The translations under genes and the position numbers were made by a program. The notes under the pieces were generated by a model that saw nothing but the letters and a program-made list of their open reading frames with translations, was not told the origin of the DNA and searched no databases. A stretch of DNA of 64,000 bases from Crassaminicella thermophila (lineage in GTDB: Bacteria; Bacillota; Clostridia; Peptostreptococcales; Thermotaleaceae). Below, one piece after another: positions 11,001 through 45,817 of the stretch. Location of the stretch: assembly GCF_008152325.1 (NCBI RefSeq), contig NZ_CP042243.1, positions 563,026-627,025 on the forward strand. Reading direction: 5' to 3'. Each line of letters starts with the position of its first letter. The stretch's first letter is position 1.

Positions 11001-11070
11001 AGGTTTTCACCAAAAATATGATGACGAAATATAGATATATAATATATAATTAATATAAGAATACTTAAGG

Positions 11071-11102
11071 CCTCACCAGTAATGGGTGAGGTTAATTGTT
11101 TT
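11071..11102 (+). terminator. Hairpin, probable terminator after the methyltransferase gene
   Basis: CCTCACC / GGTGAGG 7-bp stem with a 7-nt loop, followed by TTAATTGTTTTT. The T-run is interrupted, so efficiency may be modest. Confidence 0.55.
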
Positions 11103-11184
11103 TAAGGGGAAGGAGGAATATACTAGCATAAACTAATATTATTTCCAATAAAGCTTTTCCATCATAAAAGAAAGGCGTGATATT

Positions 11185-30023: not shown

Positions 30024-32732
30024 ATGAGTTACATAAATAGAAATAGACATAAAATCATTTTTTTGGTTATTTATATTTTTGTTTTATCAGCAAATTTTTC
30101 ATTTTCTCAGGATTATGAGCATAGACATGTGCTTATTTTAAATTCTTATCATAGAGGATGCGAATGGACAGAAGAAATAGAAAAAGGAATAATAGAAAAT
30201 TTCAATAGAAAAGAGCAAAAGTATATATTTCATATTGAATATATGGATACAAAGAAAATTTATGATCAATTATACTTTGAAAAATTATATGAACTATATA
30301 AGTATAAATTTAAGGATAGTAAATTCGATGTTATTATTTCTAGTGACAATGATGCATTGAATTTTTTAGTAAAATACGGTGAAAAATTATTTCCAAATAC
30401 ACCGGTTGTTTTTTGTGGAGTAAATAATTTTAGAGATTCTATGCTTTCAGGAAATAATTTGTTTACAGGGGTAGTAGAAGAGGTAGATTTAAAAAGCAAT
30501 ATTGATATAGCACTAAAGCTTCATCCTAATTCAAAGCAAATGATTGTATTACTTGATCAAAGTGCTACTAGTATTGAGAATAAAAAAATGATACAGAAAC
30601 TAATTCCTTGTTATCCTAATTTGAAATTTATTTTTATAGAAGAGCAGAAAATTTCTGAAGTAGAAAACACAATAAAAAATTCACCAAGAGATAGTATTAT
30701 TTTTTACTGTGCAACATTTAAGGATAATAAAGGGGGATTAATTCCTGAAAAAACTTATATTCAGAATATTTCAAATAAATACAAAATACCTATCTATACT
30801 GGATGGAGCTTTTATCTAGGGAAAGGTATTGTAGGAGGTAAAATGGTAAGGGCTTATGATCAAGGAAAGATAGCTGCAAAAATGGCAAAAAGCATTTTAA
30901 AAGGAGAAAAAGTAGAAAATATTCCTATTATTAAAGAAAGCCCTAGCTATTATATGTTTGATTATAATCAAATGAAAAAATTTGGAATAGAGATTATGAA
31001 CTTACCTAAAAATAGTATTTTAGTAAATAGACCTTCATCAGTTTATTCGTTACCAAAGGCGTTTGTTTATGAAATTCTTATTTTTATAATTTTTATTCTT
31101 ACAAGTTGTATATTTATTCTTTTCAAAAATTTTTCTAAATGCAAACAGCTTGAAAAAGAGCTAAAAGAGCACTTGCAGTTTATGAATAAATTAATAGATA
31201 CCATACCAAACCCAATATTTTGGAAGAATACAAAAGGGATATATACAGGCTGCAATAAAGGTTATGGAGATTTATTAGAAATGGATACAAATGATATTAT
31301 AGGCTGTGGTGTTCATGATATTTTTAATAAAGAATATGCTGATATTTATTATGAGATGGATAAAGAACTTATGAATCGGGGTGGGATTCAAATATATGAA
31401 GAAAAGATTCATAGTAAAGATGGTAAATATCGAGATGTAATTTTTAATAAAGCAGCCTATACAAATATAAATGGAGAAGTTGAGGGCCTTATTGGTGTTA
31501 TTGTAGATATAACAGAACGTAAAAAGATTGAAAAGAGAATGCGTGAAAGTGAAGAAAGGTATCGCATGCTTATTGAGAATGTACCTGATGGGATTGTTGT
31601 TTATAATGATGAAAAAATACAATTTATAAACAAGGCTGGATTAGAGATGCTTGGTGTAGAAAAACAAGAAGAAATAATAGGAAAGTCTGTGATGGATTTT
31701 CTTTATCCTTGTTATCATGATAGTTTTAAGAAAAGTATTGAGCAAGTAAAAGATAAAAAAGTTGTTCCTGTAATAGAACAAAAGATTGTCAGAAAAGATG
31801 GTACTATTATTGATGTTGAAGTAAAATCTATTTCTTTTCTTTATGATGGAGAGGTAATGGTATTTAGTGGCTTTAGAGATATAACAGAACGTAAAAAAAA
31901 TGAAGCATTGCAGAAGAAGATAAAAGAAGCAATGGAACAGGATCGATTAAAAACAGAATTTTTTTCTAATTTATCACATGAGTTAAGAACTCCATTAAAC
32001 ATAATATTTAGTAGTATACAGTTGCTAGAATTGGATTTTAAAAATAATAAAATGATCAAAAATGAAAAAGGCTTAAACAAACGAATTAGGGTTTTAAAGC
32101 AGAATTGTTACAGACTTTTGAGACTTATAAACAATTTGATTGATATAACAAAAATGGATTCAGGTTATTTTGAATTAGAAATACAAAATCATAATATTGT
32201 AAGCATTGTTGAAGAGATTACTTTATCTGTAGCAGAGTATATAGAGCAAAAAAATATAAACCTTCAGTTTGATACAGATGTAGAGGAGAAGATTATAGCT
32301 TGTGACCCAGATAAAATTGAAAGAATTATTTTGAATTTACTTTCTAATGCTATAAAATTCACAAATCCTGGAGGAAGGATTATGGTGAATATGTTTGATA
32401 AAGGAGACAGGATTATTATTACAGTAAAGGATACAGGAATAGGCATACCGAAAGATAAATTAGAAGCAATTTTTGAACGGTTTAGACAAGTAGATAAGTC
32501 ATTTAGAAGAAATCATGAAGGAAGTGGAATAGGATTATCTCTTGTAAAATCTCTTGTACAAATGCATGGAGGAAGGGTTTTTGTAAAAAGTGAATATGGC
32601 AAAGGAAGTGAATTTATAATAGAACTTCCAGTAAAAGAAGTTAGAAATGAAGGAAGAAGTTTTTCTAGTCAAAATATACCACAAACTTATGCAGAAAGAA
32701 TAGAGATTGAGTTTTCAGATATATATGCATAG
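30024..32732 (+). CDS. Large sensor histidine kinase with ABC-substrate-binding sensor and two PAS domains
   Basis: 902 aa. Signal/membrane segment about 10-30; extracytoplasmic ABC_sub_bind-type domain about 35-335 (HVLILNSYHRGCEWTEEIEKG); membrane segment about 348-368; two PAS domains, about 385-500 and 510-630, each ending in a PAC-like DITERKK; HisKA with H-box SHELRTPLN; HATPase with NAIKFTNPGG, DTGIGIP and GSGIGLSL. No response regulator is adjacent. The kinase domain and the tail EFSDIYA closely match the kinase at the left edge, so the two are paralogues with swapped sensor domains. Confidence 0.93.
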   Translation: MSYINRNRHKIIFLVIYIFVLSANFSFSQDYEHRHVLILNSYHRGCEWTEEIEKGIIENFNRKEQKYIFHIEYMDTKKIYDQLYFEKLYELYKYKFKDSKFDVIISSDNDALNFLVKYGEKLFPNTPVVFCGVNNFRDSMLSGNNLFTGVVEEVDLKSNIDIALKLHPNSKQMIVLLDQSATSIENKKMIQKLIPCYPNLKFIFIEEQKISEVENTIKNSPRDSIIFYCATFKDNKGGLIPEKTYIQNISNKYKIPIYTGWSFYLGKGIVGGKMVRAYDQGKIAAKMAKSILKGEKVENIPIIKESPSYYMFDYNQMKKFGIEIMNLPKNSILVNRPSSVYSLPKAFVYEILIFIIFILTSCIFILFKNFSKCKQLEKELKEHLQFMNKLIDTIPNPIFWKNTKGIYTGCNKGYGDLLEMDTNDIIGCGVHDIFNKEYADIYYEMDKELMNRGGIQIYEEKIHSKDGKYRDVIFNKAAYTNINGEVEGLIGVIVDITERKKIEKRMRESEERYRMLIENVPDGIVVYNDEKIQFINKAGLEMLGVEKQEEIIGKSVMDFLYPCYHDSFKKSIEQVKDKKVVPVIEQKIVRKDGTIIDVEVKSISFLYDGEVMVFSGFRDITERKKNEALQKKIKEAMEQDRLKTEFFSNLSHELRTPLNIIFSSIQLLELDFKNNKMIKNEKGLNKRIRVLKQNCYRLLRLINNLIDITKMDSGYFELEIQNHNIVSIVEEITLSVAEYIEQKNINLQFDTDVEEKIIACDPDKIERIILNLLSNAIKFTNPGGRIMVNMFDKGDRIIITVKDTGIGIPKDKLEAIFERFRQVDKSFRRNHEGSGIGLSLVKSLVQMHGGRVFVKSEYGKGSEFIIELPVKEVRNEGRSFSSQNIPQTYAERIEIEFSDIYA

Positions 32733-32844
32733 GTTATTGTATAAAAGTTTAATGGAGGTTATTCGTAAAAAAATATATTGATAATTTATGGAAAATAATA
32801 TAAAATTTACATGTCGAAGTTTCATATATAATATTTTTATTGAG

Positions 32845-32873
32845 AAACTGCCGGTATTTTGCTGGCAGTTTTT
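32845..32873 (+). terminator. Intrinsic terminator after the large sensor kinase
   Basis: AAACTGCC / GGCAGTTT stem with an 11-nt loop, followed by TTC. It separates the kinase from the riboswitch region. Confidence 0.75.
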
Positions 32874-32944
32874 CAATAAAAAAGAGGAAAATTGAAATAG
32901 CTGTTGAAATACATTATATGAGATGATAAAATTTATTACGGAAA

Positions 32945-33120
32945 AATGTTGCTATGTCTAGGGAAAAGGGTGTAAGGCCCTTGCTGTAGTCGCAGCTGTA
33001 ACCAGTGATGAGGAGTAGAATATGCCACTGTCTAGATAGATGGGAAGGTTTACTCTAAAGATGACCTGGGAGCCAGAAGACCTGACATGGCATTCTTCAG
33101 TTAACCTCCGGCTTAGAGGG
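32945..33120 (+). promoter_or_regulatory. Cobalamin riboswitch aptamer
   Basis: Holds the hallmark blocks of the RF00174 class in order: GGGAAAAGGGTGTAAG, GCTGTAGTCGCAGCTGT, GCCACTG, GGGAAGG and the B12-box-like GAGCCAGAAGACCTGAC. The closing stem GCTATGTC (32951-32958) pairs with GACATGGC (33084-33091). A further hairpin, CCTC/GAGG around 33104-33118, follows. It is placed to regulate the large surface-protein and ECF operon by adenosyl- or methylcobalamin. A 62-codon open frame across it is not a gene. Confidence 0.92.
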
Positions 33121-33179
33121 ATTGAAGATATATGTGATCGTCATATATTATTTGATATGAAAGATACATATGTCTTTTG

Positions 33180-33212
33180 CCCTTTCCTCATTCTGGAAAG
33201 GGTTTTTATTTT
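33180..33212 (+). terminator. Expression-platform terminator of the cobalamin riboswitch
   Basis: Perfect CCCTTTCC / GGAAAGGG stem, 7-nt loop, then TTTTTATTTT, about 90 nt after the aptamer and 110 nt before the first gene. It indicates transcription attenuation: cobalamin bound, terminator formed, operon off. Confidence 0.85.
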
Positions 33213-33322
33213 AATGTTAAGAAAATGAAAACAAAGAAACTATTTTGATACAAGGGGGGATTCAAAAATAAAGATTATGAAAAGTATCAAAAAGTTTGAA
33301 GAAAAAAGAGAGAGGTGAAAAA

Positions 33323-36300
33323 ATGAACTTATTTAATAACAAAAATAAGCTTTTGATTTCTAAAGTAATGTTAATAATCTTGTTGGTAAGTACTATTTTT
33401 TCGATTCTACCTATATTTAACGGAAACTATACAGGGAGTGCAGAAACTGTACAAAAATATGTTTATGACGAAGACATTGTTCAAGAAGATGTATATGACG
33501 AAGACACTGTTCAAGAAGATGTATATGACGAAGACACTGTTCAAGAAGATGTATATGACGAAGACACTGTTCAAGAAGCTGTTTATAGTTCAGTTTATAG
33601 TGACTTAGCAACACAGGCAGTGAGAAATCATTACAAAACATATAAAAATGGAAAAGCTGTAGACGGTAAATGGGGAAATTTTGGAGCATATGATGCATAC
33701 ATATTGGCAGAAGCTGGAGCAAACTTAGAGAGTTGGACATATAATGGAACTACATTCAAAGAAAAAGTAGATAGTTTGATTGATGCAACGATTGCAAACG
33801 AAGATACAGAAAATAAATCATCAGCTAAGAGAGTGGCTCAAGAATATTTAGCAGCTAAAAGTTTAAATGAAAGTGATAAGGCAACTCAATTATTTAACAT
33901 CTTAAAGAATAGACAAAAAAAGAAGATGGATCATTTGATACAGGCCTTTTATAGTATGTATAGCAATGTAGCTACATATGAGCTATTGGTAAGAGCAGGA
34001 AAAATAATGGATATTGATACAGACAAAGCAATAGAATATATTTTAAAAAATCAAGATGTGAATGGTTCATGGCCTATACAAGATGTTGACACCTATATTT
34101 ACAATGATTTTATGATGACAGCACAAGCTGTAAGAGTATTAAAAGCATTAGAGGCATCTGCAGGAGAAAGAATTACAGATGTAGAAAATGCAATTGAAAA
34201 AGGAAAGAAATGGCTAAAAGAAAAACAAAAATCAGATGGAAGTTTTGTGAATGGTTATGACGATATTGTTACAGATACAGCAGAGATAATTTATACATTA
34301 AAGGATTTAGGAATAGATCCAGATACATGGACTAGTGAAGATGGTAATAGCCCAGTAGATTATATGAAAGAAAAAGCATTAAAAGAAGGAAGCTTTGGTA
34401 ATGTAGGTAGTACTACTTGGGCATTGGATGCATATCTAAAATTAGGTGGAGAGGTTTTAAACGATACTGTATTAGGTATAAAAATAACTCCAGAAAGTGC
34501 AAATATTACTAAAGGTAATACAAAACAATATAAAGCAGAAGCATATAAATTAGATGGAACTATAGAAGATATTAGCGATGTTGTAAATTGGTCTACTGCT
34601 AATAATGAAATTGCAACAGTAGATAATGGATTGGTAACAGGAGTTTCAGCAGGAACTACAGAGGTAAAGGCAATATATAAAGAATTTAGTGATACTTCTA
34701 CAGTTATAATTCAACTTACTGTTATTGACGAATTGGCAGTTAAAGCAGTGAGAAATAATTACGAAACATATAAAAATGGAAAAGCTGTAGACGGTGGATG
34801 GGGAAATTTTGGAGCATATGATGCATACATATTGGCAGAAGCTGGAGCAAACTTAGAGAGTTGGACATATAATGGAACTACATTCAAAGAAAAAGTAGAT
34901 AGTTTGATTGATGCAACGATTGCAAACGAAGATACAGAAAATAAATCATCAGCTAAGAGAGTGGCTCAAGAATATTTAGCAGCTAAAAGTTTAAATGAAA
35001 GTGATAAGGCAACTCAATTATTTAACATCTTAAAGAATAGACAAAAAGAAGATGGATCATTTGATACAGGCCTTTATAGTATGTATAGCAATGTAGCTAC
35101 ATATGAGCTATTGGTAAGAGCAGGAAAAATAATGGATATTGATACAGACAAAGCAATAGAATATATTTTAAAAAATCAAGATGTGAATGGTTCATGGCCT
35201 ATACAAGATGTTGACACCTATATTTACAATGATTTTATGATGACAGCACAAGCTGTAAGAGTATTAAAAGCATTAGAGGCATCTGCAGGAGAAAGAATTA
35301 CAGATGTAGAAAATGCAATTGAAAAAGGAAAAAAATGGCTAAAAGAAAAACAAAAATCAGATGGAAGTTTTGTGAATGGTTATGACGATATTGTTACAGA
35401 TACAGCAGAGATAATTTATACATTAAAGGATTTAGGAATAGATCCAGATACATGGACTAGTGAAGATGGTAATAGCCCAGTAGATTATATGAAAGAAAAA
35501 GCATTAAAAGAAGGAAGCTTTGGTAATGTAGGTAGTACTACTTGGGCATTGGATGCATATCTAAAATTAGGTGGAGAGGTTTTAAACGATACTGTATTAG
35601 GTATAAAAATAACTCCAGAAAGTGCAAATATTACTAAAGGTAATACAAAACAATATAAAGCAGAAGCATATAAATTAGATGGAACTATAGAAGATATTAG
35701 CGATGTTGCAAATTGGTCTACTGCTAATAATAAAATTGCAACAGTAGATAATGGATTGGTAACAGGAGTTTCAGCAGGAACTACAGAGGTAAAGGCATCC
35801 TATCAAGACTGTAGTGGTATAGTGAAAGTGAATGTATCTGGTGATAATAGTGGCATAGTAGAAAAAGGTTTCACAGTAAAAGTTGCGGTAATTGGTAAAT
35901 CTGGAGAATTATTATATGGACCTAGTAGTGTAACTATTTCAAAAAAATATGAATACAAAGATACTGCTTTGAGTGCTTTAGATGCAACTGGATTACGTTG
36001 GAAATTCAGTAACGATTGGCCTGGAATGGTTAATGAAATTGAAGGACAGAAAAATAAGGGTATGAATGGATGGATGTATGCTGTTAATGGCAAAGCACCA
36101 TCTGTATTGCCAGGTGAAAAAACAGTTAAAAAAGAAGATAAGATTCTTTGGTGGTATAGTACGAATGCTATGTCAGAGGTGCCAAAATGGCCTGATTCAT
36201 CAAATAAACCAACTATTATATCTGAATCAAAGATTGAGGAAAAAGTTAAGGAAACTTTAGATAACTACAATAAAAAGCTTGAGAAAGTGAAAGATAAAAA

Positions 36301-37312
36301 TAGTATTTTAAATATAGATAAGAAAATGACACAAAAGGAAGCAGAAGCTTTGAAAAAGGAACTAGATAAAAATAAGGTTTCTATTAATAAAGTGGCTAAT
36401 AATACAGAAACAGTGTTGGCAGATTCTAAGTTAGAAGTATCATTGTTGATCCCTAAAAAAGCATTAGATGGGGCAAAAAAAATAACCATTTCTGAATTAG
36501 AAAAAGATGAGAATCCAAAACAATTTGCTGTTAAAGTTAATTCATCTACCTATGAGTTTGGACCTAGTGGAACTAAGTTTGATAAACCAGTAACTATAAG
36601 CATTAAGCTTGCAATAACAGATGAAATGAATATAGAAAAAATATCTCCAGCTTGGTATGATGAGGAAAGTAAGAAATGGATTCCTATTCCAGGGATAATA
36701 GATGCTGAAAAGGGGTTAGTTGTATTTAATATTGATCACTTTACAAAGTTTGCAGTAATTGAATTACCAAATAAAATAAGCTTTAAAGATGTAGACGAGA
36801 AGATTTCTTGGGCTAAAGATGCTATTGAAATTTTAGCAGGTAAAGGAATCATAAAAGGTACAGGTAATGGATTTGAACCTCAAAGGTCAATTACTCGTGC
36901 TGAATTTATTAGCTTAGTGGTAACTGCTTTAAATTTAGAAAAAGAAGAATATATAGAAGAAACCTTTAGTGACGTAAATAAATTAGATTGGTTTGCTAAT
37001 GCTGTAGGGTGTGCTTATAAAAGCAATATTATATCAGGAGATCCAGATGGTAAGTTTAGACCTAATGATCCAATAACAAGAAATGAAATTGCTAGCATAC
37101 TTTATAGATTACAAGGATCACCAGAAAATAGTATTAAAAATAGTAAATTATCTTTTAAAGATATAAATACTTTACCTAGTTGGGCAATAAATGGAGTAAA
37201 ATATGTTTATCAACAAGGATTGATGAGTGGATATGAAGATGAAACATTTAGGGGAGGCAATGCATTAACTAGAGCAGAAGCTGCAGTGGTTATCTATAAT
37301 TATCTAAAATAA
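33323..37312 (+). CDS. Giant SLH-anchored surface protein with two alpha/alpha-toroid domains, Ig-like domains and DUF4430: predicted corrinoid capture protein
   Basis: 1329 aa; start ATG at 33323 behind GAGGTG. Signal peptide about 1-40; four 10-residue acidic repeats (YDEDTVQEDV) about 48-87; toroid domain 1 about 99-379; Big_2 Ig-like about 380-455; toroid domain 2 about 475-754, containing QKEDGSF-type prenyltransferase/cyclase repeats; second Big_2 about 755-833; DUF4430 about 846-947 (GWMYAVNGKAPSV, ILWWYS); a linker plus a beta-rich domain; three SLH domains 1152-1329 that bind secondary cell-wall polymer. An alpha/alpha-toroid joined to DUF4430 (InterPro: transcobalamin-like C-terminal) is the layout of intrinsic factor and transcobalamin. 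With the upstream cobalamin riboswitch and downstream ECF genes this suggests corrinoid capture at the cell surface. Binding is inferred. Toroid 1 carries a compensated frameshift. Confidence 0.87.
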   Translation: MNLFNNKNKLLISKVMLIILLVSTIFSILPIFNGNYTGSAETVQKYVYDEDIVQEDVYDEDTVQEDVYDEDTVQEDVYDEDTVQEAVYSSVYSDLATQAVRNHYKTYKNGKAVDGKWGNFGAYDAYILAEAGANLESWTYNGTTFKEKVDSLIDATIANEDTENKSSAKRVAQEYLAAKSLNESDKATQLFNILKNRQKKKMDHLIQAFYSMYSNVATYELLVRAGKIMDIDTDKAIEYILKNQDVNGSWPIQDVDTYIYNDFMMTAQAVRVLKALEASAGERITDVENAIEKGKKWLKEKQKSDGSFVNGYDDIVTDTAEIIYTLKDLGIDPDTWTSEDGNSPVDYMKEKALKEGSFGNVGSTTWALDAYLKLGGEVLNDTVLGIKITPESANITKGNTKQYKAEAYKLDGTIEDISDVVNWSTANNEIATVDNGLVTGVSAGTTEVKAIYKEFSDTSTVIIQLTVIDELAVKAVRNNYETYKNGKAVDGGWGNFGAYDAYILAEAGANLESWTYNGTTFKEKVDSLIDATIANEDTENKSSAKRVAQEYLAAKSLNESDKATQLFNILKNRQKEDGSFDTGLYSMYSNVATYELLVRAGKIMDIDTDKAIEYILKNQDVNGSWPIQDVDTYIYNDFMMTAQAVRVLKALEASAGERITDVENAIEKGKKWLKEKQKSDGSFVNGYDDIVTDTAEIIYTLKDLGIDPDTWTSEDGNSPVDYMKEKALKEGSFGNVGSTTWALDAYLKLGGEVLNDTVLGIKITPESANITKGNTKQYKAEAYKLDGTIEDISDVANWSTANNKIATVDNGLVTGVSAGTTEVKASYQDCSGIVKVNVSGDNSGIVEKGFTVKVAVIGKSGELLYGPSSVTISKKYEYKDTALSALDATGLRWKFSNDWPGMVNEIEGQKNKGMNGWMYAVNGKAPSVLPGEKTVKKEDKILWWYSTNAMSEVPKWPDSSNKPTIISESKIEEKVKETLDNYNKKLEKVKDKNSILNIDKKMTQKEAEALKKELDKNKVSINKVANNTETVLADSKLEVSLLIPKKALDGAKKITISELEKDENPKQFAVKVNSSTYEFGPSGTKFDKPVTISIKLAITDEMNIEKISPAWYDEESKKWIPIPGIIDAEKGLVVFNIDHFTKFAVIELPNKISFKDVDEKISWAKDAIEILAGKGIIKGTGNGFEPQRSITRAEFISLVVTALNLEKEEYIEETFSDVNKLDWFANAVGCAYKSNIISGDPDGKFRPNDPITRNEIASILYRLQGSPENSIKNSKLSFKDINTLPSWAINGVKYVYQQGLMSGYEDETFRGGNALTRAEAAVVIYNYLK
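33464..33583 (+). repeat. Four tandem 30-bp repeats in the surface-protein gene
   Basis: Unit begins TATGACGAAGACACTGTTCA; four units, nearly identical, coding for YDEDTVQEDV each. In frame, just after the signal peptide; probably a flexible acidic spacer whose copy number may vary. Confidence 0.95.
33617..35797 (+). repeat. Tandem duplication of a 1.05-kb toroid + Ig-like coding unit
   Basis: 33617-34672 and 34745-35797 are almost identical at the nucleotide level, with offset 1128 bp falling to 1125 bp after three extra bases in copy 1. Only a handful of substitutions are visible, such as GGAAAG versus GGAAAA before AAATGG. The duplication is recent or maintained by gene conversion. Confidence 0.95.
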
Positions 37313-37346
37313 TTTATATAATAAAAAATTAAATATATGTAGTATG

Positions 37347-37394
37347 CATGCACTGTCAGTTTAATATATAATTATAGTTAATGGACAGTGCATG
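37347..37394 (+). other. Intercistronic hairpin after the giant surface-protein gene
   Basis: Perfect 11-bp arms CATGCACTGTC / GACAGTGCATG with a 26-nt loop, followed by TTTAGTTTC. It lies between the surface-protein gene and the lipoprotein gene. It may be a weak terminator or an mRNA-stability element that lowers downstream expression. Confidence 0.6.
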
Positions 37395-37421
37395 TTTAGT
37401 TTCAATAAATGGAGGTAGTTT

Positions 37422-38412
37422 ATGAAAAAAATACGATTAAGTTGCTTAGTATTGATCATATTTGTACTTATGATGACTGTTACTGCTTGTGGAGGTAAGG
37501 ATGTCAATCCTAATAATGAAAAGAGCAATTTTGTAGAAAAAGCAAATGACATAGGAAATGTAACATTATTAGTAACAAGGGATTTTGGAAATCAGATAAT
37601 ACTTAATAAAGATGTTGAAATAAAAAAAGATTGGAACGTGATTGATCTTTTGGAAGCAAGTACAGAAATAACTACAAAATGGGATGGGAACTTTGTAACA
37701 GGAATTAATGGATTAAAAGTCTAATAATGGAGGTCTTTCAGGAAAAAGATTAGATTGGTTTTATTATGTTAATGGTATTTGTGCCGATGTAGGGGCTATG
37801 GGTTACGATCTACATCCTGGAGATATTGTTTGGTGGGATTATCATGAGTGGCAAAGTATGGGATCTACAAATTCTGCAGTGATTGGTTTATATCCAGAAC
37901 CATTCATTCATGGTTATCATCAAAAGGTTGGATTAACTACTATTATAACTTCTGAAAACAATTTTAAATTAGCAGAAGTTTTAAAAAAATCCTTAGAATC
38001 TAAGGGCGTTTTATCTGTTACGGTTAAAAATTTAGATGAGGGTATATTGGAAAATAGAGTAGGACCTACCATTGTTATAGGGAAGTGGAATGAACTTAAA
38101 AAGATAGAGTACTTGAATGATTTAAACAAAGCATATCGAAAAGCTGGAACGAATGTACATTTTACAGATGATGAGATAGAGCTTTTAAAAAGTAGTGGAA
38201 AAGTCGGTAAAACAATTAGAAATAATGCAGGAGTAATTGTTGCTTGTGGAGAAGGATTGGGGGATGATAGTCCACTTTGGCTAATTGTTGGAAATGATAG
38301 TAAAGGATTACAACAGGCAGTAGATGTTTTGGTAAATAGTCCAGACAAAATTTCTAAAATGTATAGTGCAGCAGTAGTTTCTGGAGAAGTTATAAGACTA
38401 CCATTACAATAA
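37422..38412 (+). pseudogene. DUF4430 (transcobalamin-like C-terminal) lipoprotein, interrupted by a one-base frameshift
   Basis: ATG behind GGAGG. Lipoprotein signal with lipobox VTAC (Cys about 22). A DUF4430 domain begins near residue 45; the frame stops at 37722-37724, and the same domain continues in the +1 frame (GKRLDWFYYVNGICADVG, HPGDIVWWDYHEW), running to 38412 with about 170 further residues of an unrecognised alpha/beta domain. The span 37422-38412 is 330 codons plus one base, so removing one base near 37721 restores the reading frame. It is either a genuine inactivation or a sequencing error. The intact product would be a membrane-tethered ligand-binding protein between the SLH proteins and the ECF transporter. 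Confidence 0.8.
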
Positions 38413-38429
38413 AGAAGGAAGCGAGAAAA

Positions 38430-39347
38430 ATGATGCTTGTATATAGAGAAAAAGATAACTTGATTTATAAGTTGCATCCAATAACAATGATTTCTTTTAT
38501 TTTTGTAGTTTTTATTTTATCACTAGTTTTTTCACATCCAGTATATTTACTTGGATTGTTTTTTGCTGTAGCAGGAGTAATTATTACTTCAGGAAATTTT
38601 TCTGAGTGGAAAATATATTTAAAATTTACTGTTGTTATGATTATTGTAATTTTAATTGTGAATGCTATTTTTGTTCATGCTGGCTCAACAGTTTTAATTT
38701 CTGGACCTAGATTACCCGTATTGGGTAAAGTACAAATAACAATGGAAGCATTAGCTTTTGGGATAGGAATGGGTATACGCTTATTAGTAATTACTAGTAT
38801 ATTTTGCCTTTATACATATGCAGTACACCCAGATAAAGTTATGAAAATATTTAGTCGTTGGGGGAATAAATCTATATTGATTATTACACTTGCTACCCGA
38901 TTATTTCCCTTAATGGTAAGAGACTATCAGAGAATAACGGAAGTACAACGATGCCGTGGTGTAAAGTTTGATACAGGTAAATGGTGGAATCGTGCTAAAA
39001 ATTTATTACCTGTAATTAGTGTACTTTTATTATCTTGTTTAGAGAGGTCATTTCAGTTAGCTGAGTCTATGTATGCTAGAGGTTATGGAAGTGGAAATAG
39101 GTCCTGTTATAGCAGAGATTTATGGCGACCTAGGGATTATATAATTCTTTTTACACTTTTTATAAGTATGGGAACAGGGATATGGGCTGCTTTAAAAGGC
39201 TGGGCAAGTTATGGTTATTATCCCAAATTAGAAAGATTTAATTTGAAAGAATTATATATGGTAGTAGTTGTTATGATATCATTAATGTTTCCAGTTATTC
39301 TGAATTGGGGGTGGAAGAGATGGCCAATATTAAGATCAAAAATTTAA
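38430..39347 (+). CDS. ecfT: Energy-coupling factor transporter transmembrane component EcfT
   Basis: 305 aa integral membrane protein of the CbiQ/EcfT family, with five or six hydrophobic segments. The coupling-helix motifs appear in MVRDYQRITEVQRCRGV and AESMYARGYGSG, each giving the A-R-G type signature that contacts the two ATPases. It starts 17 nt after the lipoprotein frame and overlaps the ATPase gene by 28 nt. It couples ATP hydrolysis to the S component. Confidence 0.93.
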   Translation: MMLVYREKDNLIYKLHPITMISFIFVVFILSLVFSHPVYLLGLFFAVAGVIITSGNFSEWKIYLKFTVVMIIVILIVNAIFVHAGSTVLISGPRLPVLGKVQITMEALAFGIGMGIRLLVITSIFCLYTYAVHPDKVMKIFSRWGNKSILIITLATRLFPLMVRDYQRITEVQRCRGVKFDTGKWWNRAKNLLPVISVLLLSCLERSFQLAESMYARGYGSGNRSCYSRDLWRPRDYIILFTLFISMGTGIWAALKGWASYGYYPKLERFNLKELYMVVVVMISLMFPVILNWGWKRWPILRSKI

Positions 39348-41008
39348 ACTATCAGTATCCGGAAACAAAAAATTTAGCTTTAAATAATATAAATCTAGAA
39401 ATTCCACAAGGCCAGTTTGTTTTGCTGGTAGGAGGTTCTGGAAGTGGAAAGTCAACATTAATACGTTCTATTGCTGGATTGGTTCCTAACTTTTATGGGG
39501 GAAAGTATGGTGGTGAGGTTTACTTAGATGATAAAGAAATACGTCAGATTGATCGAAGAAGTTTTGTTCAGCAGGTGGGTATGGTTTTTCAGGATCCAGA
39601 GAGTCAATTGGTAATGACTAACTTAGAAGAGGAGATTGTTTTTGGATTAGAAAATTTAGAATTACCTAATAGTTTAATGAAACGAAGGGTGATGGAAGTT
39701 AGCAGTGCACTATCATTGTCTGATTATAAAAATAAATTTATACCTGAATTATCAGGAGGACAAAAGCAAAAGGTAGCTTTAGCATCTGTTCTAGCAATGC
39801 AGCCGGATATATTATTATTGGATGAACCTACATCACAACTTGATCCAATTGCTGGAGAAGAGATCCTTACAATGGTTAGACGATTAAACGAAGAAAATGG
39901 AATTACTGTAGTTTTGACAGAACAAAGATTAGAAAGATGTTTTCACTTGGCTGATAGGGTATTGGTTATGGAGAGAGGAGAAATTATTTATGATCATCAT
40001 GACCCTAAAACAATCGCAGAATGGGCTGTGGATAATAAAACACCTTTTATTCCACCATTAGCAAAATTATTTGCAAATGTAGGCTATCGTGAGGTGCCTG
40101 TTACAGTAAAGCATGGAAGAGAAATTCTTAGATCTTATAGGAATAAATTAAAGCCAATTAGGATTGATTCAGAAAAAAGAGCTGAAAAATTTGAAAAAAC
40201 AGAAGAAGCATGTTTGGTAGATATTAAGAATCTTTGGTTTACTTACCCGAATGGGAAAGAGGTATTAAAAAATATTAATTTAAAAATTAAGCCAGGTGAT
40301 TTTATTGTTGTAATGGGAGAAAATGGGGGAGGAAAAACTACCCTTATGAAGCATATTAATGGATTACTTAAACCTAGTCGTGGTCATGTAAAGGTTTTAG
40401 GTAAGGATACAAAAAAAATGTCTATAGAAGAATTATCATCTATAATTGGTTATTTATCTCAAGATCCTAATGATTACTTATTTTTACCTACTGTAAGAGA
40501 AGAAGTAGCTTTTACGTTGGAGAAATTAGGAATTAAAGATGATAGGATACAGAATAAAATCCTACAAAAACTTCAAATTGATTCTTTAAAAGAAAGGAAT
40601 CCTAGAGATCTAAGTACAGGTCAGCGGCAACGTGTAGCTTTAGCTTCTATTTTAGTAACAAAACCTAAACTATTGCTTTTAGATGAACCTACTCGAGGTT
40701 TAGATTATCAATTAAAAGAAGCACTAGGAGAAGTTCTTCTAAAACTTAAAGAAGAAGGAATGACTATTTTTATGATTGCACATGATGTAGAATTTGCTGC
40801 AGAATATGCTGATGAAATTATATTGTTAGATGGAGGAAGTATTATCGCTAGGGGAAACAAATATGAAATGCTTACTAATTCTACTTTTTATTCACCACAA
40901 ATTAGTAAGTTATTCCACAATTTTGTTGAGAATGTAGTAACACTTGACCAAGGAGAAGTAATACTGAGAAATATGATAGGATCAGATCAGAAAGAAAAGT
41001 ATGCTTAG
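39320..41008 (+). CDS. Fused energy-coupling factor ATPase (EcfA-EcfA')
   Basis: 562 aa with two complete ABC ATPase domains. N-terminal: Walker A GGSGSGKST, signature LSGGQKQ, Walker B LLLDEPTSQLDP. C-terminal (from about 295): GENGGGKTT, LSTGQRQ, LLLDEPTRGLD. Many ECF systems use separate EcfA1/EcfA2; the fusion fixes the pair. Start ATG at 39320 with GGTGGAAG upstream, inside the end of ecfT. It powers the S components encoded next. Confidence 0.95.
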   Translation: MANIKIKNLNYQYPETKNLALNNINLEIPQGQFVLLVGGSGSGKSTLIRSIAGLVPNFYGGKYGGEVYLDDKEIRQIDRRSFVQQVGMVFQDPESQLVMTNLEEEIVFGLENLELPNSLMKRRVMEVSSALSLSDYKNKFIPELSGGQKQKVALASVLAMQPDILLLDEPTSQLDPIAGEEILTMVRRLNEENGITVVLTEQRLERCFHLADRVLVMERGEIIYDHHDPKTIAEWAVDNKTPFIPPLAKLFANVGYREVPVTVKHGREILRSYRNKLKPIRIDSEKRAEKFEKTEEACLVDIKNLWFTYPNGKEVLKNINLKIKPGDFIVVMGENGGGKTTLMKHINGLLKPSRGHVKVLGKDTKKMSIEELSSIIGYLSQDPNDYLFLPTVREEVAFTLEKLGIKDDRIQNKILQKLQIDSLKERNPRDLSTGQRQRVALASILVTKPKLLLLDEPTRGLDYQLKEALGEVLLKLKEEGMTIFMIAHDVEFAAEYADEIILLDGGSIIARGNKYEMLTNSTFYSPQISKLFHNFVENVVTLDQGEVILRNMIGSDQKEKYA

Positions 41009-41017
41009 GTGAATGTT

Positions 41018-41713
41018 ATGAATAAACTAAGTATTTTAACAATAGGAATTATAGGCTTGGTACTACTAATAAGTATAATACCAGATAGTCCATTATTTGA
41101 AGCAAATTGGGCATTGATATCTACAATTATTATAATGATTACGCTGGTAGGTTTTTTCTATAATATTGAAAAAAGTAAAGTTACATCTAAAGAAATCACT
41201 TTGATTAGTACATTAGGTGCATTAGCAGCTATAGTGAGAATGCCTTTTGCATATTTAATGAGTATTCAGCCAACTACTTTCATAGCTATGATTACAGGTT
41301 ATATTTTTGGACCTCAGGCTGGTTTTATGGTAGGGGCTACTGCGATTTTGGTATCTAATTTTTATGCAGGTCAAGGAATGTGGACTCCTTGGCAAATGTT
41401 TTGTATGGGAATTGCCGGAGCTTCAGCAGCAATACTAGCTAAAGAAGGGAGACAGTTTAATATAAAGCAATTTGCTTTTTGTTGTGCCCTATGGGGATAT
41501 ATTTATGGTTGGATTATGAACCTATGGTATTGGACATGTTTTGTGTATCCATTGAATTTTAAAACTTTTGTATCTACATATTTGGCTAGTTTAGCGTTTG
41601 ATACTTTTCGAGCTTTAGGTAATATGTTTTTTACTCTTTTATTGGGAAATTCTTTCTATCGTATATTGATAAGATTTAGAAAAAAATTAAGTATTGAGTA
41701 TATGAAAAGTTAA
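41018..41713 (+). CDS. ECF transporter S component (first copy), predicted corrinoid-specific
   Basis: 231 aa, about six membrane helices. Start ATG at 41018 with AGGTG upstream; translation follows the ATPase gene directly. It contains SIQPTTFIAMITGYIFGPQAGFMVG in outline and the tryptophan motif GMWTPWQMFC. It resembles the S components annotated near cobalamin riboswitches (CblT/CbrT class), but I cannot assign the subtype. It is closely similar over its length to the second S component at 43351. Confidence 0.85.
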   Translation: MNKLSILTIGIIGLVLLISIIPDSPLFEANWALISTIIIMITLVGFFYNIEKSKVTSKEITLISTLGALAAIVRMPFAYLMSIQPTTFIAMITGYIFGPQAGFMVGATAILVSNFYAGQGMWTPWQMFCMGIAGASAAILAKEGRQFNIKQFAFCCALWGYIYGWIMNLWYWTCFVYPLNFKTFVSTYLASLAFDTFRALGNMFFTLLLGNSFYRILIRFRKKLSIEYMKS

Positions 41714-41782
41714 AGATATTCGTTTTTAAAATAGATATTAGAGTTTTTAGTGACTTAAATGGAGTAGAAAGGAGAAGGGAAT

Positions 41783-43309
41783 ATGAATAAAAGGAAAGTT
41801 ATTATATGTATCATTCTAACAATGTCTATTCTTATGTCATCCATTGGCTTTGCTGAGCAGTATTCTTCAGATCAGAAAGTAAAAAAAAGCATAGAAAAAG
41901 CAATTTATTATCTACATAGTGTCCAAAATAAAGATGGCGGATTTCCTGCTACGGTAGGAAACCCTAGTAGCCTATCTTTAACTAGTTGGGTTATTATGGC
42001 TTTGACAGCAGCAGGAGAAAATATTACAGATGCTACTTGGACTCCTAAAGGTAAAAATCCAATAGATTATATAAAGAATTCAAAAAATATATTAGAAGAA
42101 ACTACAGATTATGCACGATTACTATTAGCACTTACTGCAACTAATCAAGGAACAGTTTGGCAAGGAGAAGATTTAGCGAAGAAAATCATTTCATTTCAAC
42201 AAAGTAGTGGTCAATTTTGTCAACTAGATCAGGGAGAGAAGGGAATGATAAATTCCCACATGTGGTCAATTTTAGCTCTTGCTTCATCTGGACATGAAAT
42301 TCCTAACAAAGAAAAAGCAAAAAAATGGCTACTTTCAAGACAGAATGAAGATGGTGGTTTTGGATGGTTAGAGGGTGTAGAAAGTGATGCTGATGATACA
42401 GGGGTGGCTATTCAGGCACTAGTTATGTTAGGTGAGAACCCAAAAACCTCTAAGGCTATCAAAGATGCAATGAATTTCATTAAAAAATATCAGCAGGAAG
42501 ATGGAGGATTTAGCTCTGGGGAATGGATGGGGAATAGCTCAAATTCAGCTTCTGATTCTTGGGTTTTACAGGGATTGATTGCTGCAGGAGAAGATCCAAC
42601 AAGTAATAGATGGTCTATTAATGGAAAAAATGGAATAACCCATCTTTTGAGCTTGCAAAATAGTGATGGTTCATTTAATTGGAAAGAAGGGGTAAGTTCT
42701 TCCACAGTCACTATGACGTCATATGCTATAATGGCATTAGCACAAAGACCTTTTCCAGTAAATATTGATTATAAGAAAAAAGCAGTTGATGAAGAGTTAT
42801 TTTTAGATTTATCTAGTAATCACTGGGCATATAAAGCTATTACAGATTTAGTAAAGAAAAATATTTTATCAGGATATCCAGATGGAACTTTTAGACCAGA
42901 AAAATCTGTGACAAGAGCTGAGTTTACAAATCTTATGATTTGCGGATTGAATTTACAGAAAAGCAAACATAATGTAAATATAAAATTTAAAGATGTATTT
43001 AAAAATCATTGGGCATATAACGCTATTTCCATTGCGGTAGGCAAAGGGTTTATTAAGGGACGTTCTGATAAGATTTTTGATCCTAATGGAAAAATAACAG
43101 GAGCTGAAATGGCAACGATGTTGGTGAATAGTTTACCTCCCGAGAAAAAAAGTAAAATAAAAGAAGGGCCTTATTGGTATTCGGGCTATGTAAAAATTGC
43201 AAAGGAAAATGATCTATTATATCCAAATTTTAAAGCTAAAGAGAGTGCTAGCAGAGCTCAATGTGCATATAGTATTATGAAATTAAGAAATCTCTTATTA
43301 AACAATTAA
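41783..43309 (+). CDS. SLH-anchored alpha/alpha-toroid (prenyltransferase-repeat) surface protein
   Basis: 508 aa with AAGGAGAAGG upstream. Signal peptide about 1-24 (IGFAEQ). Toroid domain about 30-325 with four QxxDGGF-type repeats (QNKDGGFPAT, QNEDGGFGWL, QQEDGGFSSG, QNSDGSFNWK). SLH domains about 335-508, the third degenerate. There is no catalytic DxDD-like motif of terpene cyclases, so a binding rather than enzymatic role is likely. It sits between two S-component genes of the same operon. It lacks DUF4430, unlike the giant protein. Confidence 0.88.
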   Translation: MNKRKVIICIILTMSILMSSIGFAEQYSSDQKVKKSIEKAIYYLHSVQNKDGGFPATVGNPSSLSLTSWVIMALTAAGENITDATWTPKGKNPIDYIKNSKNILEETTDYARLLLALTATNQGTVWQGEDLAKKIISFQQSSGQFCQLDQGEKGMINSHMWSILALASSGHEIPNKEKAKKWLLSRQNEDGGFGWLEGVESDADDTGVAIQALVMLGENPKTSKAIKDAMNFIKKYQQEDGGFSSGEWMGNSSNSASDSWVLQGLIAAGEDPTSNRWSINGKNGITHLLSLQNSDGSFNWKEGVSSSTVTMTSYAIMALAQRPFPVNIDYKKKAVDEELFLDLSSNHWAYKAITDLVKKNILSGYPDGTFRPEKSVTRAEFTNLMICGLNLQKSKHNVNIKFKDVFKNHWAYNAISIAVGKGFIKGRSDKIFDPNGKITGAEMATMLVNSLPPEKKSKIKEGPYWYSGYVKIAKENDLLYPNFKAKESASRAQCAYSIMKLRNLLLNN

Positions 43310-43350
43310 ATAACATAAGGCCAAAAGATGGAAATAAATGAGGGATAAAT

Positions 43351-44073
43351 ATGAAAGTTAAATCTATTACATTTATAATAATTATGATAGCATTATTATT
43401 GGGAATTAGTATTATACCTGAAAATCCATTATTTCATGTAAACTGGGCTTTATTTTCAGCAATAATTATTGGTTTAGCTATGCTCACTTTTTTTTGGAGA
43501 TTTGAGAGAAGTGGAATAAATGCTAAAGAAGTTGCTTTGATTGCTACAATGGCATCTCTGGCAGGCATAGCTAGAGTACCTTTTGCTGCAATAATGAGTT
43601 TACAACCCACTACATTTATGGTTATGATTACAGGATACGTTTTTGGAACTCAAATTGGCTTTATGGTTGGTGCTGTAGCAGCTTTGGTATCTAATTTTTT
43701 TATAGGTCAGGGGCCTTGGACTCCTTGGCAAATGTTTTGTTGGGGAATGTGTGGTGTATTAGCAGCACTATTATCAAAAAGGTGCAAAAATTTAAACTTA
43801 ATTTTCTTTACTGTACTTACAGGTATATGTGGTTATCTATTTGGTTGGGTAATGAACATCTGGCATTGGGTAGGATTTGTATATCCATTAACATTGAAGA
43901 CTTTTTTAGCTACATATGCGGCTAGCTTTCCTTTTGATACACTACATGCTTTAGGAAATGTTGTTTTTTCTATTTTATTTGGAAAGTCATTTTACCAAGT
44001 ATTAGTTCGATTTAAAAAGAGAATTTCAGTAACGTATACTATGATAAGAGATACTAATAAAAAAACCTGCTAG
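43351..44073 (+). CDS. ECF transporter S component (second, paralogous copy)
   Basis: 240 aa, same helices and motifs as the first copy (ISIIPENPLF, LQPTTFMVMITGYVFG, GPWTPWQMFCWGM, WHWVGFVYPL). Visible differences concentrate in membrane faces, e.g. WYWTCFVYPL versus WHWVGFVYPL, so ligand preference may differ. The stop codon lies in the arm of the operon's terminator. Last gene of the train. Confidence 0.85.
   Translation: MKVKSITFIIIMIALLLGISIIPENPLFHVNWALFSAIIIGLAMLTFFWRFERSGINAKEVALIATMASLAGIARVPFAAIMSLQPTTFMVMITGYVFGTQIGFMVGAVAALVSNFFIGQGPWTPWQMFCWGMCGVLAALLSKRCKNLNLIFFTVLTGICGYLFGWVMNIWHWVGFVYPLTLKTFLATYAASFPFDTLHALGNVVFSILFGKSFYQVLVRFKKRISVTYTMIRDTNKKTC
44056..44073. terminator. Left arm of a bidirectional terminator split by the IS
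   Basis: AATAAAAAAACCTGCTAG here pairs with CTAGCAGGTTTTTTATT at 45800-45816. Before the insertion these formed one hairpin between the S-component gene and gpmI; the IS now lies in its loop. Confidence 0.8.
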
Positions 44074-44155
44074 TTATGAATATGCCCCTGTCAAGTAGAC
44101 AGTGGAAAAAATAAAAAGGAATTGCGCTAATCGTACTTTACGGTTAGCGTGATTT

Positions 44156-45050
44156 TTATGCAACATTACATAGGTATTGTCTGTATTCTAAAGGTGTCAT
44201 ACAACCAAGACGTTTTTGATATCTGTGATTATTGTAGTATTCAATGTAATTAGTTACTGCTGTTTCTAATTCTTCATAAGTATAGAATTTTCTTAAATAG
44301 TACATCTCTGATTTCAGCATACCCCAGAATGCTTCCATTGGTCCGTTGTCAATACATCGTCCAACTCGGGACATGCTCTGAATCATTTCTGATTTATCCA
44401 ACTTCTTTTCGAAATATTTTTGATGTATACTGAAATCCACGATCACTATGAAAAATAGGCTTTTCATCTGGATAATTCTCATGTGCAAGATCAAATGTTT
44501 TAAATACTAAAGGATTGTTATTAGATTTACCAATAACAAAAGAAACTACGCTTTTATCCGATAGATCAATTATTGCACTTAAGTATGCTTTTTGATTATT
44601 GCCATATTTAAATTCCGTAACATCTGTAACCCACTTCTGACCAAACTTATCTGCTTTAAAGTTTCTATTTAAAATGTTTTCCGCTATAACTTCAGGAGTT
44701 GACTTAATATATTTTTTCTTCTTCTTTCGACATACCGACTTTAGGCCTAAAATAGTCATTAAGCGATAAATTCTCTTATGATTTACTCTAAAATTGTTCT
44801 CTCTGTTTAGTTTAATTGTCATTTGACGATAGCCAAGAATACCATCTCGTTCTTCATAGGCTTCTTGAATTAAAGGTATAAGTTTTTTGTTAAAGTTCTC
44901 ATTTTTACTCTCTTTACGATTCAACCATTTATAATAAGATGACCTTTGAACACCAGCTATTTCACATAGTGTAAAAATTGGATATGACTGTATATCATGT
45001 AATTCTTTAATTGCTAAATAGTAGGTTTCATTTCTTACTTGGCTTAAAAT
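44156..45050 (-). pseudogene. IS3-family transposase OrfB (DDE integrase), frameshifted
   Basis: The DDE core is recognisable: WVTDVTEF, HSDRGFQYTS, then DNGPMEAFWGMLKSEMYY with the last glutamate in the other frame. One extra base near 44411 (298 codons plus 1 over the span) breaks the frame after TSKIF. Expression would normally come from a -1 slip at the A AAA AAG heptamer (complement of 45074-45080) near the end of orfA, and the -1 frame is open from there into orfB. Confidence 0.85.
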
Positions 45051-45727
45051 CGCCTCCTTTCTATTTCTTCTAACTTTTTTAAAAAATCAATCTCCATTTG
45101 TTGCCTTTTATTTTGAGCTTCCAGAAGTTTGTTTAGTGCTCTAAGCTTTTCAATCTCTGACAATTCATTTGCATTTTTCTGTTTGCCACGTTTATCTTTT
45201 AATGCCTCAACACCAGATTCCTCATATTTTTTAGTCCATGAATAGACTTGATGATATGATACTTTATATTTATCTGCAGTTTTACTATAGCTGTTCTGAT
45301 GTTCAATGCAGTGCTTAACAATTTCTATTCTTTCATTAAAATTAGTTTTACGTCCGTTGGCCATGACTTTATCTTCTCCTATTCCTGATGATTTTAACTC
45401 TTCATGACCATTATACTTTATAATCCACTTAAGAACAGTTGTATGTGAGGGAATCTTAAATTTTTTTGCAATGTCATATATCGAACTGTCACCCTCAAGA
45501 TATGCTTTAATAACAGTAATTTTAAATTCTTTTGAATAGAAATTATTATGAGACTTATTCATTAATGCTTCTTTACCCATTGATTGATAGTTTACAATCC
45601 ATTGTCTAAATGAGTTTCTAGTTACACCATATTTAGATGCAATTGATGTTTGTGATCCTACATTATTTAAATATTCTTCAACTGCTTTAATTTTTAGTTC
45701 GTAATCTATTTTACCTTTTCTGCCCAT
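45044..45727 (-). CDS. IS3-family transposase OrfA
   Basis: 227 aa DNA-binding subunit. Three helix-turn-helix-like units are visible (SIASKYGVTRNSFRQWI, DIAKKFKIPSHTTVLKWI, KTADKYKVSYHQVYSWTKKY), followed by a leucine-rich coiled coil at the C-terminus, as in IS150-type OrfA. Start ATG at 45727 behind GGAGGAG. The slippery heptamer for OrfAB lies in its last codons. Confidence 0.9.
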   Translation of the reverse strand: MGRKGKIDYELKIKAVEEYLNNVGSQTSIASKYGVTRNSFRQWIVNYQSMGKEALMNKSHNNFYSKEFKITVIKAYLEGDSSIYDIAKKFKIPSHTTVLKWIIKYNGHEELKSSGIGEDKVMANGRKTNFNERIEIVKHCIEHQNSYSKTADKYKVSYHQVYSWTKKYEESGVEALKDKRGKQKNANELSEIEKLRALNKLLEAQNKRQQMEIDFLKKLEEIERRRF

Positions 45728-45817
45728 AAGAAAATGCTCCTCCTTCAATAAACAGTTTTTTTATTTTAACTGTCCACTTCAAGGGGAGCATATCATTATC
45801 TAGCAGGTTTTTTATTA

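Follow-up and report, generated by a model that had tools for sequence, protein, structure and literature searches.

Introduction

Bacterial surface proteins in which an alpha/alpha toroid is combined with a transcobalamin-like SLBB domain have been predicted, in operons with CbiO and CbiQ, to serve in the scavenging of vitamin B12, and Desulfotomaculum, Moorella and Syntrophomonas were named in this context (Burroughs, Balaji, Iyer & Aravind, 2007; PMC1796856). In the present study a gene cluster of the same kind is described from Crassaminicella thermophila, located at 32930-44073 of a window of 64,000 nucleotides (the whole stretch of DNA that was analysed, G000:C1:563026-627025, in a genome of 3.08 Mb). 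It comprises a cobalamin riboswitch, two secreted wall proteins, a DUF4430 lipoprotein gene and an energy-coupling factor (ECF) importer with two S components, and we regard it, with a probability of about 0.82, as a cobalamin-riboswitch-regulated system of a Gram-positive cell for the scavenging of corrinoids (vitamin B12 or cobinamide). A sequence-only reading of this stretch had proposed that the wall proteins catch a corrinoid, that the lipoprotein relays it and that the ECF complex imports it; this is supported overall, its core being already contained in the earlier prediction (Burroughs et al., 2007; PMC1796856).

With the proteins predicted in 2007 the locus shares the secreted toroid fused to a transcobalamin-like beta-grasp domain, the second SLBB paralogue, the CbiO-like ATPase and the CbiQ-like membrane protein, and it is a further case of the kind foreseen there (Burroughs et al., 2007; PMC1796856). 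The main text of that paper contains none of the words riboswitch, prenyltransferase and S-layer. Such bacteria were described there as usually devoid of key enzymes of B12 synthesis, whereas the host of the present locus has synthesis genes; across the genomes searched here the usual lack was likewise not seen, as judged by one marker, CbiD.

Further systems are related to single parts of the cluster. For the S component CbrT, of ECF-CbrT from Lactobacillus delbrueckii, transport of cobalamin and cobinamide has been demonstrated (PMC5997447), and the present cluster resembles ECF-CbrT in its homologous S components and its ECF module. It differs in an N-terminal hydrophobic extension of the cluster's S component, where about 57 residues precede the segment aligned to 6FNP, in a dedicated fused EcfA-EcfA', in the possession of two S components and in encoding wall and membrane capture proteins. 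The animal carriers haptocorrin, transcobalamin and intrinsic factor, which contain the best match to our structural model in the Protein Data Bank (PDB), likewise consist of an alpha/alpha toroid and a DUF4430-type beta-grasp domain. They are described as soluble, secreted proteins with the ligand sandwiched by both domains (Burroughs et al., 2007; PMC1796856), whereas here the protein is SLH-anchored, the toroid is duplicated and a Big_2 domain lies between the domains. BtuG of Bacteroides is similar in role, capturing B12 at the surface ahead of an importer, but is reported as exclusive to Bacteroidetes and as working with BtuB (PMC6143338). In Lacticaseibacillus rhamnosus a lipoprotein has been assigned to a cobalamin ECF transporter, though as a database name only ('additional lipoprotein component of putative cobalamin ECF transporter'), and the same paper records a DUF4430 protein beside rtpR (PMC9963975). 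No experimental test of bacterial toroid-DUF4430 proteins was found in the open-access literature searched.

Results

Cobalamin riboswitch and organization of the cluster

The sole Rfam match at gathering score across the window was a cobalamin riboswitch aptamer, RF00174, at 32930-33103 on the + strand, aligned over its full length (1-189) with 81.6 bits against a gathering score of 31.5 (cmscan), so that the riboswitch proposed by the sequence-only reading was recovered. A whole-genome search gave eight RF00174 elements in total, among which the present one is the weakest, the other seven scoring 109-122 bits. An intrinsic terminator, made up of a stem of nine pairs and a T run, lies 3' of the aptamer at 33179-33203 (+). 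It is the longest among seven terminator-like sites in 32700-44400, where 3.8 were expected from shuffles, and it forms its own hairpin when folded. An aptamer followed by a terminator is commonly read as an OFF switch, and the terminator is likely the expression platform of such a switch. All genes up to 44073 lie on the + strand, the same as the riboswitch, and are separated by short gaps or overlap, as had been read from the letters. A promoter scan returned 63 sites where 59.1 were expected, and nothing is therefore concluded from it. Directly 3' of the operon, on the - strand, IS3-like transposase genes (rve/HTH_21 and HTH_Tnp) occupy 44394-45748.

ECF module and CbrT-type S components

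The importer parts named beforehand, EcfT, a fused EcfA-EcfA and two S components, were all found with Pfam and NCBIfam, and with EcfT, two EcfA domains and an S component every part of an ECF transporter is present. The transmembrane coupling protein EcfT (38430-39347, +) matched PF02361 with 65.1 bits; the fused EcfA-EcfA' ATPase (39305-41008, +) contains two ABC_tran stretches and matched TIGR04520, again in two stretches, with 424.5 bits (cut-off 315). S component 1 (41009-41713, +) matched PF12822 with 43.5 bits and S component 2 (43351-44073, +) matched PF07155 with 39 bits, both over cut-off. When compared with PDB sequences, 6FNP chain A was the only significant match of S component 1 (E 5e-9) and 6FNP the only match of S component 2 at E up to 1 (E 2.6e-12). 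This chain, listed in the PDB just as 'membrane protein', we take to be CbrT from the vitamin B12 transporter ECF-CbrT. By sequence both S components are thus CbrT-type (vitamin B12) homologues, S component 2 being the canonical one, and the homology to a proven B12 S component agrees with the import of vitamin B12 through an ECF transporter that the sequence-only reading had put forward.

The two S components differ in their degree of conservation. Identity to the nearest relative is 73% in S component 2 and 56% in S component 1, and the latter deviates at P122, W131 and H199 (numbering of S component 2). Among 82 other S components compared, P122 was found in 82, W131 in 82 and H199 in 79 (R in three), the conservation of P122 being partly selected, as it lies within the search pattern PW[TE]PWQM. 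Methionine at the position of W131 also occurs in two divergent relatives (L061 and L063).

Wall proteins and toroid duplication

The first gene encodes a secreted, SLH-anchored protein, P0001 (33323-37312, +), whose open reading frame (ORF) extends over 33296-37312 and opens with TTG at 33296, the better start being probably the ATG at 33323. As identified by Pfam and local profiles it consists of an acidic repeat, toroid 1, Big_2, toroid 2, Big_2, DUF4430, a ZU5-like domain and three SLH domains, in this order, and agrees with the SLH protein with two toroids and DUF4430 that had been described from the sequence. The acidic stretch is a 30-nt tandem repeat. In the Pfam scan SLH, two Big_2, DUF4430 and Prenyltrans/SQHop toroids were matched; local profiles placed the toroids at residues 103-414 (copy 1, 33602-34537, +) and 479-789 (copy 2, 34730-35662, +). 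The transcobalamin-like DUF4430 domain (35960-36160, +; residues 889-955 by local profile) scored 45.5 bits with PF14478 (cut-off 23.8), and the SLH wall anchor (36782-37309, +) 142 bits with PF00395 in three stretches. A second secreted protein, with toroid and SLH (41783-43309, +), matched PF00432 (65.5 bits) and PF00395 (102.7 bits), as anticipated, and with PF02361 in EcfT each of the four families to be looked for was found in proteins of the cluster.

One correction to the sequence-only reading concerns the two toroids of P0001. In DNA comparison the toroid-Big_2 copies 1 and 2 (33602-35800) were identical at 1061 of 1078 bases, and by this sequence identity the modules are a recent tandem duplication. 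A short compensated frameshift in toroid copy 1 rewrites a brief stretch of the protein; the differences in this copy fall in homopolymers and may hence be assembly errors.

The split lipoprotein gene

The DUF4430 lipoprotein had been read as a single gene, and while its signal peptide, lipobox and both halves of DUF4430 are present, they are split over two frames. The 5' fragment (37422-37724, +) carries the signal peptide with lipobox and the first half of DUF4430, and the 3' fragment (37798-38412, +) the end of DUF4430 and a C-terminal domain. The second half of DUF4430 (PF14478 positions 36-71) lies at 37738-37845 in a frame other than that of the 5' half, and the frameshift lies in 37715-37800. 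Neither ORF alone matched PF14478 in the Pfam scan (E up to 0.1), but the 3' frame reached 39.6 bits in the whole-genome search (cut-off 23.8). The frameshift may be a real mutation or an assembly error. No second copy of the gene was found in the genome, the genus search covering this genome alone, and no Pfam match was obtained for the C-terminal fragment in the window. In an intact relative from Desulfoscipio geothermicus (L070:4785-5834) the modelled C-terminal residues 169-348 resemble BcsB as well as the N-terminal domains found in GH67/GH115 glucuronidases (VIA-align, Z of about 9 to 13).

Structural comparison with animal cobalamin carriers

Residues 470-962 of P0001, comprising toroid copy 2 and DUF4430, were modelled with AlphaFold2 together with 18 homologues (predicted local distance difference test, pLDDT, 92.3; predicted template modelling score, pTM, 0.75; no ligand in the model). 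In a Foldseek search against the PDB, haptocorrin with cyanocobalamin ranked first (E 4.6e-8), ranks 3 and 5-9 were transcobalamin or intrinsic factor, and ranks 2 and 4 were taken by Ig-like chains of LigA, so that the likeness to animal carriers suggested by the sequence-only reading was borne out at the level of predicted structure. The toroid aligned with that of intrinsic factor with Z 18.7 at 3.2 Å over 235 residues (VIA-align). In the model of the lipoprotein relative in L070 (pLDDT 87.1, pTM 0.78) the DUF4430 domain (residues 63-165) superposed on the beta domain of haptocorrin with Z 14.5 at 2.2 Å over 95 residues, followed by intrinsic factor, transcobalamin and the Ruminococcus gnavus protein 3U7Z (Z 13.4-13.8). 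In this model DUF4430 is a beta-grasp fold like the beta domain of the carriers. A profile of DUF4430 only, run against PDB sequences, likewise gave haptocorrin as the best match, with a weak E of 0.0073 and unrelated chains next. The relationship to the carriers rests on comparison of modelled structures together with PF14478.

Occurrence in related genomes

Fifty-nine genomes, the host's own and those of relatives, were searched. Of these, 28 contained DUF4430 and 24 the S component; in 20 of the 24 (hand count; the exceptions are G003, G025, G026 and G042) the S component lies no more than 10 kb from a DUF4430 match. For the 26 genomes in which DUF4430 exceeds the cut-off (122 matches, one borderline row excluded), at least 30 of the 103 riboswitches listed are situated 10 kb or less from a DUF4430 match, against 1.8 expected with genome sizes rounded and kinship among genomes ignored; the association is far above chance.

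A broader set comprised the best 80 loci from a scan of one genome per species through S-component patterns including PW[TE]PWQM; conservation inside the motif is therefore partly selected, while neighbours and riboswitches were not picked by the pattern. Close relatives are present in the set, and L140 and L143 stem from one genome. Domains were called with profiles built from the window proteins. Training of the riboswitch model (R1) used 12 sequences, five of them from L070, L097, L106 and L133, which Rfam finds independently. The loci belong mostly to Bacillota (Syntrophomonadaceae, Desulfotomaculum-like bacteria, Moorella, Clostridium, Paenibacillus, Bacillus, lactobacilli), but also include contigs of metagenome-assembled genomes labelled archaeal (three), Armatimonadetes, Actinomycetota, Deltaproteobacteria and Tritonobacter. 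The ATPase was found in 80, EcfT in 75, DUF4430 in 72, at least two DUF4430 genes in 54, a toroid in 65, one ORF with both toroid and DUF4430 in 53, SLH with either in 33 and a same-strand upstream riboswitch in 55. When the 12 loci with less than 6.5 kb upstream are excluded, a riboswitch remains in 54, DUF4430 in 67 and a toroid in 61 of 68, and the recurrence of riboswitch, DUF4430 and ECF genes that a genome survey was to reveal is apparent.

The architecture of the surface proteins varies among lineages. Toroid-DUF4430 order, often with SLH, is found in many Clostridia and Paenibacillus, DUF4430 precedes the toroid in Bacillus and in several loci of Clostridium, and lactobacilli encode the two as short proteins apart from each other. 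Large DUF4430 ORFs (n = 65) carry SLH in 29 and LPxTG-like ends in 15 cases. A lipobox-like motif was seen in 30 of 78 short DUF4430 ORFs of the 80-locus set; the pattern was strict and visibly missed some cases, and the 78 include fragments as well as ORFs with a wrong start. Many of the others start with a hydrophobic stretch; judged from sequence, the short DUF4430 protein of these loci is not always a lipoprotein.

Regulation by another ligand, which would have spoken against corrinoids, was looked for as well. Among the 23 of the 80 loci that were run against Rfam, none was clearly under another riboswitch, and no consistent regulator other than that for B12 emerged. In L142 (Cerasibacillus) a thiamine pyrophosphate (TPP) riboswitch lies nearby, with an S-component-like gene, presumably ThiT, between it and the DUF4430 gene; because of this intervening gene the TPP riboswitch may or may not govern the cluster. 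In L133 a c-di-GMP-I riboswitch is situated 3' of the S component.

Other cobalamin riboswitches and corrinoid genes of the host

The host genome carries CbiD, and CobB and CobT adjoin other cobalamin riboswitches in it, as does a BtuC-like permease (below cut-off) a further one. In the genomes searched CbiD was counted by hand in 19 of 28 with DUF4430 and in 22 of 31 without (one of the 22 a partial match). Elsewhere in the host a cobalamin riboswitch precedes an AspT/YidE-like antiporter gene (L004:1859-3091), and another precedes a gene for a 242-aa protein without NCBIfam match (L002:606-1334, -).

A riboswitch-rich island with nitrogenase-like genes in a relative

In a genome of the same family (G010) contig C12 contains, at about 92-183 kb, a one-strand island of about 90 kb that is closed by a like ECF set. 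The region inspected (L149-L153, G010:C12:88000-187999) contains eight matches to the cobalamin riboswitch, of which seven score 72-120 bits and one is weak, at 18 bits. The G010 genome has 13 Pfam matches to DUF4430, and by local profiles DUF4430 was matched 15 times and the toroid 24 times in the island, which encodes many toroid/DUF4430/SLH proteins, a subtilase, MoxR/BatA/VWA genes, a papain-like protease with a lectin-like domain and a beta-propeller protein. Directly 5' of EcfT lie genes for a fused NifH-NifD-like protein (739 aa) and a nitrogenase component-1-like partner (L153:8426-10645 and 10611-11906; G010:C12:176425-179905). All six full-length homologues of the fused protein in the 59 genomes (E up to 1e-30; G010, G012, G014 twice, G015 and G054) are near DUF4430, five within 3 kb of a match and that of G054 at 12 kb; the window's own genome gave no match at E 1e-30. 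NifH and CfbC, the best NCBIfam matches of the fused protein, are both below cut-off. From its sequence it is a candidate for a nitrogenase-like reductase acting on corrinoids or tetrapyrroles. No paper containing both 'nitrogenase-like' and 'cobalamin riboswitch' was found in the open-access literature searched.

Discussion

The reading as a corrinoid scavenging system is supported by computation, namely by gene content, riboswitch, fold and sequence relationships, importer type and conservation. At low intracellular adenosylcobalamin the leader would be read through its terminator and the genes expressed. The SLH-anchored wall proteins would then display their toroids and DUF4430 and catch what we infer to be a corrinoid, which, by analogy with the animal carriers, is probably held between toroid and DUF4430. 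From there it may be relayed by the membrane-anchored DUF4430 protein to the importer, in which one EcfT and the fused EcfA-EcfA' would serve both CbrT-type S components.

Several observations weigh against this reading. The toroid by itself resembles terpene cyclases and epimerases (Z about 20-22; best Z 21.9, for a terpene cyclase) at least as closely as it does intrinsic factor (VIA-align), and two-domain superpositions on the carriers gave a root-mean-square deviation of about 22 Å, Big_2 sitting between toroid and DUF4430. In the model (pTM 0.75) the two domains are thus placed otherwise than in the animal carriers, and the closed cobalamin cleft between them that the sequence-only reading implied was not seen. 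At the level of sequence, the Pfam scan (E up to 0.1) matched P0001 to no family of animal cobalamin carriers, so that the link to these proteins runs only via DUF4430. The phmmer search of PDB sequences with P0001 yielded Ig-like (Big_2-type) and SLH matches and no carrier, and the toroid-DUF4430 profile gave mainly Ig-like and terpene-cyclase/prenyltransferase chains and no cobalamin carrier (E up to 0.1). Foldseek ranked BcsB chains 1-16 ahead of transcobalamin (rank 17) for the lipoprotein of L070, which is due to its C-terminal domain. An upstream riboswitch was not detected in 14 of the 68 loci (L072, L076, L077, L078, L087, L096, L104, L110, L120, L138, L139, L142, L143 and L148), among them lactobacilli and one archaeal contig, several of these contigs starting inside the cluster. 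The DUF4430 lipoprotein gene is broken in this genome, so that the membrane-anchored step may be impaired here, unless the frameshift is an assembly error. Finally, with CbiD, CobB, CobT and a BtuC-like permease in the host, the need for this importer is not obvious.

A tentative alternative, to which we give less than even odds, is that what enters is not vitamin B12 itself but a precursor of it or a special cobamide (cobinamide, an incomplete corrinoid or a lower-ligand variant), the two S components differing in substrate. The uptake of cobinamide by CbrT (PMC5997447) would fit, as would the occurrence of CbiD, a marker of corrin synthesis, in the host and in most DUF4430-bearing genomes, and the deviation of S component 1 at three positions near-fixed in the others. 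Yet CbiD is equally frequent in genomes without DUF4430, and the ligand class would be the same, a corrinoid, with CbrT accepting both cobalamin and cobinamide. It is unlikely that the cluster is a decaying remnant, no longer functional in this strain. Its lipoprotein gene is frameshifted and without a second copy, toroid copy 1 has its compensated frameshift and IS3-like transposase genes lie just 3'; the remaining genes, however, are open frames, the recent toroid duplication kept its frame, and the homopolymer differences of copy 1 may be assembly errors.

Least probable of all appears an importer for cobalt ions or another vitamin, with surface proteins for adhesion or for the binding of terpenoids or glycans. 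EcfT and EcfA resemble CbiQ and CbiO, the toroid fold is common to terpene cyclases and sugar epimerases, and SLH and Big_2 are common in adhesins. Cobalamin riboswitches are moreover reported to control cobalt importers as well (PMC2667541; PMC11477304). Against this, CbiM and CbiN are not among the Pfam matches of the cluster proteins, EcfT scored 42.8 where the cut-off for the CbiQ equivalog is 111.8, both S components match CbrT only among PDB sequences, and DUF4430 superposes best on cobalamin carriers. A cobalt importer was rejected on the first three of these grounds.

A wider scheme, which we consider speculative and rather doubtful, would combine these observations. Wall toroid-DUF4430 proteins, in some relatives expanded to islands that span about 90 kb and carry at least seven cobalamin riboswitches, would hand corrinoids to a membrane-tethered DUF4430 protein docking on the extended N-terminus of CbrT-type S components, paired S components of one ECF module would split corrinoid specificity, the fused nitrogenase-like reductase encoded in the islands of some relatives would process corrinoids or related tetrapyrroles, and proteins of this sort would be the ancestors of the animal B12 carriers.

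Conclusions

To the prediction of 2007 the present analysis adds the assignment of both S components to CbrT, the conservation of the riboswitch, the anchoring by SLH, the presence of two S components and their divergence, the BcsB-like domain of the lipoprotein, the duplication of the toroid and the frameshift that breaks the lipoprotein gene. As the host possesses cobalamin-synthesis genes, the system would probably serve in salvage and not as the sole supply, or in the uptake of a particular corrinoid.

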